Below, piece by piece: positions 45,269 through 48,547 of a stretch of 64,000 bases of DNA. The position numbers and the translations under genes were made by a program. Source of the DNA: an uncultured Armatimonadota bacterium. Its GTDB lineage: Bacteria; Armatimonadota; Fimbriimonadia; Fimbriimonadales; Fimbriimonadaceae. Under the pieces are notes generated by a model, which saw only the letters and a program-made list of their open reading frames with translations, was not told the origin of the DNA and did no database searches. The stretch covers positions 1 to 64,000 of the forward strand of contig CAIYLG010000017.1 in NCBI GenBank assembly GCA_903927025.1, written 5' to 3'. Every line of letters begins with the position of its first letter. The first letter of the stretch is position 1.

Positions 45269-46288
45269 TCACTGAACCTTCTTCTTCGTCGGCGGAAGTA
45301 TCCGCTGACCCGCTAGCCGCATCGTTGTGTGCGCCTTGATCTTGTCTTCCTGAACCGCCTCGTCTGGAAAATCCGTGACAAACACTCCAAACCCAGATTC
45401 TGTTTTCGCCTCCGCGAGAATCGTGTGTTTGGTCTTCAGATCCAGATCAAACTCTATCGTGGATTTCATTGTAAGTGGGACCTTTTTGAGCCCGGTATCT
45501 TCCGGCTTCATTCCCACCAATTGATTGACGAAATCTCCGAGATCCGTCTTCAGGTCGAGAGTTCCCTCAACCCGATAGACCTTTTTGCCATCACTCTCAA
45601 CAATTCCCTTGTACGTGAAGGTGTAGTCCAGGCGCTGGACGGCCTGCTTGTCTCCCTTCCCTTTGAGCTTTTGTGGTTGGTAGCCCACTGTTCTCTTCCA
45701 ACTGTCGCCAACCTTGACCTCATCCAAAGGCGTCTTTGGCGCAAAGTCCAAGGCTGACTCAAACGAGCCCGCAAACAGAGACAGTCGGTACATCTCGCTG
45801 ACAAATTGGCTCAGCAAACCACCGAGCTGCGCCTGCCTGCGTTCGACGCCTACTGGCGCAAGAGATGTGAAGCCACCTTTCTTCGTTGGTTTGCCACCTT
45901 TGTCTGTGAGATCCTTCATCTCCAAGATTTCATTGAGAGGCGATACCGTCAATCTAAAGTCGATGTTCGACTGGATGACATTGTCCTTGGGGGGAGCATC
46001 GAATGTCTCGCCCTCGATCTCATGCATCACAGGTCTCTGATAGTGCACCACGGCAATACCATCAGCCTTGAGATCTTCCACGACGGTCGTGAAGTCGTAA
46101 TTGAGGTCGAGATCCTCTGGAATCCAAGTTTGCAGTCCACGTACGCGATGCTCAGAGTGAAGGCTCGATCGGATCTCGTAGGCGAGCTTTTCGTTCTTCA
46201 CGAAAACTCGCCCTAACGAAACCGAAGGATCCTTCGCCTGTGGCAGCACGCTGGCTGCGGTGACGAACAACAACTGCGCGATCAGCAC
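45269..46288 (-). CDS. Secreted protein, unknown
   Basis: A 339-aa protein starting at GTG 46288, with GAGAGA just upstream. A signal peptide (MLIAQLLFVTAASVLPQ) is followed by a beta-strand-rich domain: YEIRSSLHSEHR, VGDSWKRTVGY, LDYTFTYKGIVESDGKKVYRVEG, then VPLTMKSTIEFDLDLKT. The pattern is of a beta-barrel or beta-sandwich, as in lipid-binding envelope proteins, but no family is recognised. Its own strand has no close operon partner. Confidence 0.55.
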   Translation of the reverse strand: MLIAQLLFVTAASVLPQAKDPSVSLGRVFVKNEKLAYEIRSSLHSEHRVRGLQTWIPEDLDLNYDFTTVVEDLKADGIAVVHYQRPVMHEIEGETFDAPPKDNVIQSNIDFRLTVSPLNEILEMKDLTDKGGKPTKKGGFTSLAPVGVERRQAQLGGLLSQFVSEMYRLSLFAGSFESALDFAPKTPLDEVKVGDSWKRTVGYQPQKLKGKGDKQAVQRLDYTFTYKGIVESDGKKVYRVEGTLDLKTDLGDFVNQLVGMKPEDTGLKKVPLTMKSTIEFDLDLKTKHTILAEAKTESGFGVFVTDFPDEAVQEDKIKAHTTMRLAGQRILPPTKKKVQ

Positions 46289-46350: not shown

Positions 46351-47469
46351 CTATCGTAACACTTGTTTGGCGATGACGAGCCTCTGAATCTCCGAGCACC
46401 CTTCGCCAATCTCAGTTAGCTTAGCGTCTCGCCAGAGTTTCTCGACAAGAAACTCATGGGTCATTCCTCTTCCGCCATGAATTTGAATAGCTCGGTTAGT
46501 GACCCGATTGGCGGTTTCACTGGCGTAAAGCTTGGCAAAGGATGACTCTTTGATGATCGGAAGACCCGCATCGTACATGGCCGCGCCCTTATCCGTCAGG
46601 AGATTGGAAGCTTCAATTTCCATGGCGCTGTCCGCAATCATGTTTTGAACTGACTGCATATCAGCAAGGCGGCGATTGAACTGTTCCCTGCCCTTTGCGT
46701 ATTCACACGTAAGTTCGAAAGCCTTTTCCGCAATTCCAACCGCCATAGCGGCAATTCCAAGCCTTCCACGGTAGAGGAGGCCAATGGCATCCTCAAACCG
46801 GCACGGCGTATGCCACCCGACGGCATTGGTGAGCGCAAACTGCACAGTGTTGGAGGCGCTGACACCCACCGTATGAATCCGATTTTCGACCTTGAAGCCC
46901 TCTTGGGCGGTTTCAACGAGGAACGCAGTGAGCTCAGTCGGCGAGACTCGTGCAATCACAACAATTAAGTCTGCCTTGCCACCGTTGGTGATGAACATCT
47001 TTTGGCCATTCAGGTGGAAATAGCCTGGTCGGCCGGGAATCTCTTCGGCGTGAGTCTTCACTCTCCGAGCGTCCGAGCCAGCGTCGGGCTCAGTGAGCCC
47101 CCATGCCAATTTCAGCTCGCCGGTGACGATTCCAGGAACGTACTTCGCACACTGCTCTTCGGTAGCGAAGCGATCAAAATGGGCACTCACGAGCGCGTTG
47201 ATGGCAGATAGGTTCATTGCCAGCGCAGGATCGGCTTTGGCAATCTCTTTGACCGCATGACAGTAGGCCATACAGGAAACCCCGGTTCCACCCTTCTCCC
47301 TGGGGAGCGTCATTGCTAGGAGCCCCATCGCGCCTAACTTGGGCCAGATCTCATCTGGAAATGCGGCATTGCTCTCCCACTCTCGGGTGTAAGGGAGAAC
47401 GTGCTCCGCCGCAAACTCCCTAACCTTGGCCAGGAACTGTTCTTCGGATGCTGGAGCGATGTTAAACAT
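46351..47469 (-). CDS. Acyl-CoA dehydrogenase
   Basis: A 372-aa flavoenzyme of standard length. MLLG-type helical N-domain, then LAWGLTEPDAGSDARRVKT and GQKMFITNGG (FAD/substrate loop), the C-terminal helices with RGREQFNRRLADMQSVQNMIADS-like sequence, ending with RGMTHEFLVEKLWRDAKLTEIGEGCSEIQRLVIAKQVL. The Glu in EGCSEIQ occupies the catalytic-base region. It oxidises acyl-CoA to enoyl-CoA and passes electrons to the EtfAB pair encoded at 52.2-53.9 kb. The gene is divergent from the ArsR/B12 regulator, which might control it. Confidence 0.92.
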   Translation of the reverse strand: MFNIAPASEEQFLAKVREFAAEHVLPYTREWESNAAFPDEIWPKLGAMGLLAMTLPREKGGTGVSCMAYCHAVKEIAKADPALAMNLSAINALVSAHFDRFATEEQCAKYVPGIVTGELKLAWGLTEPDAGSDARRVKTHAEEIPGRPGYFHLNGQKMFITNGGKADLIVVIARVSPTELTAFLVETAQEGFKVENRIHTVGVSASNTVQFALTNAVGWHTPCRFEDAIGLLYRGRLGIAAMAVGIAEKAFELTCEYAKGREQFNRRLADMQSVQNMIADSAMEIEASNLLTDKGAAMYDAGLPIIKESSFAKLYASETANRVTNRAIQIHGGRGMTHEFLVEKLWRDAKLTEIGEGCSEIQRLVIAKQVLR

Positions 47470-47561
47470 GGTCGAAAACCTCTCGATCTTTGAGAATTGT
47501 CAGCTTCATTGCTCCCTTGATTTTACTTGGCTCCAGATTCCTGATGTTGCCTGAAGGAATG

Positions 47562-47596
47562 TGCATACAGAATGCATCACGAATCCGTATTATAAT
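47562..47596 (+). promoter_or_regulatory. Promoter and palindrome of the B12-type regulator
   Basis: TGCAT-N5-ATGCA (47562-47576) is a perfect 5-bp-arm palindrome overlapping the expected -35 area, and TATAAT (47591-47596) is a perfect -10 box 12 bp before the ATG at 47609. The palindrome could be a binding site for the encoded regulator and could affect the divergent acyl-CoA dehydrogenase gene. Confidence 0.5.
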
Positions 47597-47608
47597 TTGA
47601 GAACACGG

Positions 47609-48547
47609 ATGATACATCTATACGAGGAACTTGGGGATACGTCACGAAGACGACTCCTCGGCGAATTGCGAACGGGCCCCAAGACCGTCTCCGAACTTGT
47701 CGAAACCACACTGCTCAAGCAACCGAACGTTTCCAACCATCTTTCTCGCATGAAGGCTAAGGGGCTTCTGCGCGCACAGAAGGTGGGCCGACAAGTGTTC
47801 TACGCCTTTGCTTCTCCACAAATTGAAGCGGCTGTCAAAGCGGCATTTGCAACACGAGATGTTGCAGAAACCACTCTGGATGTAGAAGACGCCTCGAAGC
47901 GTTACGCCAAAGCAGCGATTCAAGGCAATGACGCCGTTTGCCAAGAGATTGTCGAAATGGCGCTGCGTCAAAGGATGTCTCTCCTGGACATCTATCAGAA
48001 CCTTCTGATGCCAGCAATGGTCGCCATTGGCACTTGGTATAAAGTTGATGCCATTGACACTGCTCAAGAGCACCTTGCGAGTTCTATCACGGAGCGAATG
48101 ATGGCCCGCGTCGTACAGAACTCAGTTCCCCTTCGCCAAGTAGGGCGAACGGCTCTGCTTGGATGCGGTCCCCAGTCTTGGCACGTGATTGGAATTCGGA
48201 TGGTGGCGGACTACCTGCACGTTGCTGGCTGGAAGACACTTTTCCTCGGGGCAAATATGCCCCACAAGTGCTTCCTCAGTTCCGTTGAGCAGCACAATCC
48301 AGATCTCATCCTGGTGAGCTGCGTCTGCTCGGACAGCGTGGAGTGCGCGACTGAACTGGTAAAGGACCTCAACGAGGCTCGGACTCCCAAGCGGAGATAC
48401 GTCATCGGAGTCGGTGGACCAAGTGCCTGTGAGAACAAGCAGATGTTCCTTGATTCAGGGGCAAGCTTTACCTGTTCAAACCTGAGGACTTTTGCAGAGG
48501 TCATCCTCCCAGAGATTGAACAGACCGGCACCTACCAAAACAAATAG
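47609..48547 (+). CDS. ArsR-type HTH regulator fused to a B12-binding domain
   Basis: 312 aa from the ATG at 47609; the frame is open to 47561 but the perfect TATAAT lies inside that part. Residues about 5-75 are an ArsR-like winged helix (EELGDTSRRRLLGEL, QPNVSNHLSRMKAKGLL). Residues about 90-170 resemble the helical B12-capping bundle, with GTWYKVDAIDTAQEHLASS (a W-x10-EH version of the W-x9-EH motif). Residues about 180-300 are the B12-binding Rossmann-like domain; SWHVIG keeps His and Gly of D-x-H-x-x-G but not Asp. In CarH/LitR the DNA-binding domain is MerR-type, so this pairing is different. Light or cobalamin sensing is inferred. Confidence 0.78.
   Translation: MIHLYEELGDTSRRRLLGELRTGPKTVSELVETTLLKQPNVSNHLSRMKAKGLLRAQKVGRQVFYAFASPQIEAAVKAAFATRDVAETTLDVEDASKRYAKAAIQGNDAVCQEIVEMALRQRMSLLDIYQNLLMPAMVAIGTWYKVDAIDTAQEHLASSITERMMARVVQNSVPLRQVGRTALLGCGPQSWHVIGIRMVADYLHVAGWKTLFLGANMPHKCFLSSVEQHNPDLILVSCVCSDSVECATELVKDLNEARTPKRRYVIGVGGPSACENKQMFLDSGASFTCSNLRTFAEVILPEIEQTGTYQNK

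Follow-up and report, generated by a model that had tools for sequence, protein, structure and literature searches.

An ArsR-type winged helix joined to a B12-binding domain

The window (the whole stretch of DNA analysed here, 64,000 nucleotides long) contains on its forward strand a gene for a 312-residue protein (47609–48547) in which three domains follow one another: an ArsR/SmtB winged-helix DNA-binding domain (residues 5–75, 47621–47833), a four-helix B12 cap (residues 97–167, 47897–48109) and a B12-binding Rossmann domain (residues 182–281, 48152–48451), all read in the forward direction. Each domain reaches its Pfam cut-off, with matches to HTH_5 (6e-9, residues 11–54), B12-binding_2 (1.4e-13, residues 97–167) and B12-binding (6.9e-16, residues 182–281), as expected from the original prediction of an ArsR-like winged helix joined to a capping bundle and a B12 fold. 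We rejected an upstream GTG (47561) as the start codon because the ATG at 47609 is backed by the orthologues, in which it is conserved.

The N-terminal domain also scores above the cut-off of the HTH_metalloreg model that marks ArsR-type winged helices (59.7 bits, cut-off 55), and domain searches of the protein found no match to a MerR-type helix-turn-helix. Its recognition helix, KQPNVSNHL, is nearly invariant among orthologues. There is no cysteine in residues 1–75, and therefore neither the metal-ligand cysteine motif of ArsR/SmtB metal sensors nor a classical ArsR metal site.

The predicted B12 site resembles those of light-sensing domains

The B12 motifs of the regulator comprise G141-T-W-Y144 and E154-H155 in the cap, and H192, G214-ANM-P218, S237 and G269-G270 in the Rossmann domain, where H192 (within SWHVIG, which maps to residues 190–195) is predicted to be the lower cobalt ligand. 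These residues are strongly conserved: of 35 sampled orthologues, 34 retain Glu154, 34 His155 and 34 His192, and all retain Gly214 and Pro218. Light-responsive cobalamin-binding domains carry the signature GxxW, EH, GxxH and GxxxP (PMC11796333). The window protein has EH (34 of 35 orthologues) and GxxxP, as GANMP at 214–218 (35 of 35), and lacks GxxW, which nine of the 35 orthologues have, and GxxH, for which it has QSWH, with the histidine in place and glutamine at position 189, where 23 of the 35 have glycine. All four elements are complete in some family members, such as L045 and L047. The shifted W-x10-EH motif seen earlier is real: the tryptophan stands one residue upstream of its position in CarH, giving GTWY-x9-EH, with Tyr144 at the canonical GxxW place. 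At this position, which is the adenosyl-contact tryptophan in CarH, 25 of the 35 orthologues have tyrosine and nine have tryptophan (34 of 35 together). The regulator has no equivalent of CarH His132, and neither does CtMerR.

Structural modelling gave a confident AlphaFold2 model (mean pLDDT 92.5) whose fold is closest to light-sensing B12 domains. The top fold matches are the light-sensing domain of CtMerR and the photocobilins, then CarH and methionine synthase, and the nearest solved structures by sequence and fold together are light-sensing AdoCbl domains (8jbs/8jbt, 8j2w/8j2x and CarH). CtMerR (8JBS/8JBT), a light-responsive B12 regulator from Chloracidobacterium, is the best match of the B12 part in both respects; it differs in having a MerR-family DNA-binding domain and the full GxxW/EH/GxxH/GxxxP signature. 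The B12 domains of the photocobilins SasPcob and AbDPcob (8J2W, 8J2X, 8J2Y) have the highest structural Z (25–26) and share the xWH motif with the window protein, but in photocobilins the partner domain is a globin that binds biliverdin, and a DNA-binding domain is absent. From the conserved pocket residues, the model and the fold matches, it is very likely that the regulator binds B12. The bound form would be AdoCbl. A light response is plausible; the tyrosine at position 144 and the glutamine at 189, which leave the signature incomplete in this protein, count against it.

A regulator of this kind could alternatively respond to how much AdoCbl or other corrinoid is present, and not to light, with the holo form repressing, the apo form releasing DNA, and an ECF sigma-factor regulon matched to coenzyme supply. 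The conserved B12 fold and cobalt-ligand histidine would suit such a sensor, as would the tyrosine that most members have at the adenosyl contact, and all 70 genomes of good quality in the family encode an adenosyltransferase. Since this enzyme is near-universal, its co-occurrence with the regulator is uninformative as evidence. We nevertheless consider level sensing doubtful, because E154/H155 and GxxxP, which characterise light-responsive domains, hardly vary among the orthologues, the nearest proteins of known structure are photoreceptors, and no cobalamin or methylmalonyl-CoA genes were recognised at the operator sites that we found (see below). The window's genome encodes a PduO-type adenosyltransferase and no methylmalonyl-CoA mutase, both in keeping with the model proposed below; as there is no mutase, we dropped a link to methylmalonyl-CoA.

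One orthologue (L091/L054, G011:C33) lacks EH, the ligand histidine and the glycine pair. It has also lost the acyl-CoA dehydrogenase neighbour described below, yet the ECF operator is kept in its genome. By analogy with CarA it may be a B12-independent repressor. If the whole family were degenerate or B12-independent in this way, like CarA and class II LitR, its B12 domain would serve for assembly only, and a distant member without the ligand histidine (L145) could be read similarly; with ligand and pocket residues kept in 34 of 35 sampled orthologues, the window's among them, this is quite improbable.

A conserved family of Armatimonadota

Apart from the window's own genome, 23 of 60 related genomes encode full-length relatives by protein search, and a profile search across 291 genomes of the phylum yielded about 50. 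In a scan of named genomes the full-length form is confined to Armatimonadota, mostly Fimbriimonadaceae with some Chthonomonadales (some few records carry unspecific or wrong titles). In a tree of B12 domains, the ArsR-linked domains form one clade of 41 rows (support 96/99), apart from a local MerR-linked clade (100/100) and from Mta-type domains; two further ArsR forms, L137 and L145, are more divergent and lie outside it. The regulator is therefore a conserved, mostly monophyletic family of Armatimonadota (Fimbriimonadia and Chthonomonadia), separate from CarH/LitR in the B12-domain tree, which supports the suggestion of a class of B12-based regulator distinct from the MerR-type ones, with ArsR-type DNA binding. 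We found no description of it in a literature search limited to open-access papers, in which those transcription factors that sense light through B12 belong to the MerR type.

Other architectures turned up in these searches. The window's own genome also encodes a MerR-type CarH-like protein (L003, G000:C2:197665), so two B12 regulators coexist in it. In another family of the same order, an open frame on the reversed strand (L057, G046:C4, from 7892) encodes a B12-binding domain followed by a C-terminal XRE-type helix-turn-helix, another non-MerR B12 regulator. In L136 (G202:C145) a different, unassigned winged-helix-like N-terminus precedes a B12 domain whose GTLW, EH and GNVH motifs are all complete. 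Finally, in proteins from Armatimonadota and Proteobacteria (L132, L133, L134 and L095–L099) a light-responsive type of B12 domain is preceded by an unrecognised N-terminal region about 150 residues long.

A 26-bp dyad covers the regulator's own promoter

The regulator promoter has a perfect TATAAT (47591–47596, forward strand), as originally reported. This -10 hexamer ends 12 nt before the ATG, and the mRNA is likely to be leaderless or to have a short leader. It forms part of the right arm of a 26-bp dyad, AATGCATCACGAATCCGTATTATAAT (47571–47596, either strand), with the consensus ATATATCA-N8-TGATATAT, that we take as the operator; the dyad thus covers the -10. Among upstream regions of the regulator a palindromic motif has a log-likelihood of 121.5, compared to 63.7 for a mirror motif, 67.3 for a direct repeat, and at most 54 in dinucleotide shuffles. 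When each sequence and its nearest kin were removed from training, the best upstream site still outscored the rest of its locus in 18 of 37 cases, against an expectation of 0.4, and the site at 47571–47596 ranks first in the 64-kb window even if training excludes the window and its nearest relative. The distance of the operator from the regulator start is conserved.

The original prediction had put the operator at 47562–47576, on a TGCAT-N5-ATGCA palindrome. That palindrome, TGCATACAGAATGCA, does sit at those positions, and its right half overlaps the conserved dyad, but it is at chance level (one such repeat seen in the 139-bp gap, 1.76 expected in shuffles) and is absent from all the orthologous promoters examined.

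Like ArsR/SmtB repressors, then, the window protein has a winged helix (HTH_5 and HTH_metalloreg, both over cut-off) and a dyad over its own promoter; it differs from them in lacking metal-ligand cysteines, its presumed effector module being the C-terminal B12 domain. A conserved operator and a nearly invariant recognition helix also speak against the idea that the protein is a partner or chaperone of a corrinoid methyltransferase and does not act on DNA. Its weak NCBIfam similarity to MtgC/MtaC-type corrinoid proteins, which is the point in favour, falls far below the cut-offs, no methyltransferase is among the nearby genes examined, the B12 domain lies outside the Mta group in the tree, and in place of D-x-H-x-x-G it has SWHVIG, without the aspartate. 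A chaperone without DNA binding does not fit a protein with a DNA-binding domain and a conserved operator, and we regard this role as highly improbable.

The divergent acyl-CoA dehydrogenase

Divergent from the regulator, as was noted originally, lies an acyl-CoA dehydrogenase gene (46351–47469, reverse strand), a conserved neighbour in Fimbriimonadaceae. It is followed, across the family, by a gene for a conserved 339-residue protein (45269–46288, reverse strand) with no family match over cut-off; the two genes probably form one operon. A -10-like element, CAAGTAAAAT (CAAGTAgAAT; 47520–47529, reverse strand), is conserved across the family and is probably the -10 of the dehydrogenase promoter. 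We sought a palindromic site on this side as well and rejected it, since the dyad signal is weak and what is conserved is CAAGTAgAAT.

This arrangement had suggested that the main job of the regulator is to control the dehydrogenase and hence fatty-acid oxidation. The divergent gene is present at 24 of 35 sampled loci, nearly always within 260 bp, and fadB-like, etfB and etfA genes are nearby in the window. However, the dehydrogenase -10 is not covered by the operator, which lies about 42 bp upstream and is fixed in position relative to the regulator start, and the dehydrogenase neighbour is missing in Chthonomonadia, where we found no conserved neighbours of the regulator, and in several Fimbriimonadaceae. 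Moreover, a second target is better supported (below). Regulation of the dehydrogenase is possible, though we think it unlikely to be the main function.

An ECF sigma-factor gene as a probable second target

We searched 13 genomes with the operator consensus and found 16 sites, compared to one for a reversed control pattern. Five of the 16 lie between an ECF sigma-factor gene and a divergent gene for a conserved 121-residue protein, whose relative in genome G012 has no Pfam or NCBIfam match. The ECF gene product has Pfam sigma-70 r2 and r4 domains, and an orthologous gene is present in most Fimbriimonadaceae. The window's genome has one on another contig, outside the window (L170, G000:C52:42636–43211), with the operator AATCAATCAATCATCACTGATATAAT about 76 bp upstream. 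In many ECF promoters TATAAT is the operator's right arm. An exact search for the operator core in 31 genomes found ten sites, seven of them at the ECF gene, and none in the ten genomes without the regulator. Other operator-like sites (L154, L156, L159, L163, L199, L204 and L206) are not seen repeatedly at any one locus and could be chance matches.

To score the ECF upstream regions we used a matrix trained on regulator promoters only. In a first set, every one of the 21 regulator-bearing genomes has the ECF operator, as opposed to two of nine that lack the regulator, and in 20 of the 21 it is the best site of about 3.5 kb. One of the two exceptions (G008) has a regulator fragment truncated by a contig end, which we spotted after scoring, and the other (G006) is 77% complete. 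In a second set of 35 genomes the operator ranks first in 20 of 20 genomes with the regulator and scores at least 6 in two of 15 without it (Fisher P = 9e-7 at threshold 6). Combining the sets, and counting G008 as regulator-bearing, the ECF operator occurs in 42 of 42 genomes with the regulator and 3 of 23 without (65 genomes), where presence and absence of the regulator are calls on draft genomes; of the three, one is the genome that is 77% complete, one is 89% complete and in 690 contigs, and one has a marginal site.

Regulator and ECF operator have been lost together within genera g1, g7, g15, g40 and g47, and on a tree of the ECF proteins the presence of the regulator changes at least 14 times, five of these changes being forced by well-supported branches. 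Neither a general promoter signal nor shared ancestry explains this co-occurrence. Motif and co-occurrence together indicate the ECF sigma-factor gene as the best-supported candidate for a second target.

A proposed AdoCbl-dependent repressor

Our model is built on computed results, namely the fold and domain make-up, the conserved B12-contact residues, the operator and its co-occurrence with the regulator at the ECF gene. In CarH/LitR the AdoCbl form binds DNA and light releases it (PMC6739363, PMC4557120), and Streptomyces LitR controls the ECF sigma factor LitS (PMC12705666). By analogy with these systems, the most likely reading is that the regulator is an AdoCbl-binding, ArsR-type repressor of its own gene and of the ECF sigma-factor gene, released by light or by loss of AdoCbl, and we think this is probably correct. 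A dimer would bind the 26-bp dyad over the -10 of the two promoters and block RNA polymerase. If the adenosyl group were lost, most likely through green light as happens in CarH, or if AdoCbl became scarcer, the assembly of the B12 domain would change, the DNA would be released and the sigma factor would be switched on. Repression rather than activation is suggested by the position of the operator over the -10 of both promoters, the single long dyad would suit an ArsR dimer, and light is proposed as the signal by analogy.

The family shares with CarH/LitR a B12 cap and Rossmann domain with EH and the histidine ligand after an N-terminal DNA-binding domain, an operator over the promoter and, as in Streptomyces LitR-LitS, an ECF sigma factor as target (PMC12705666). 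It differs from these MerR-type proteins in its ArsR winged helix and single long dyad operator, and in its B12 domain, which forms a separate clade and mostly has tyrosine in place of the tryptophan. The arrangement would thus be a LitR-LitS-like circuit on an ArsR fold. Whether light-responsive B12 repressors of a second class were assembled independently here, with ArsR-type DNA binding and control of an ECF sigma factor throughout Fimbriimonadaceae, so that LitR-LitS was re-invented convergently in Armatimonadota, seems to us evenly poised. If so, the occurrence in nature of an ArsR form that has its own dyad and a defined target would mean that the B12 light switch is a module able to drive unrelated DNA-binding folds. 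It would offer optogenetics a compact repressor that works on another operator, and would give Armatimonadota a directly testable signalling circuit with a sigma factor as its output.
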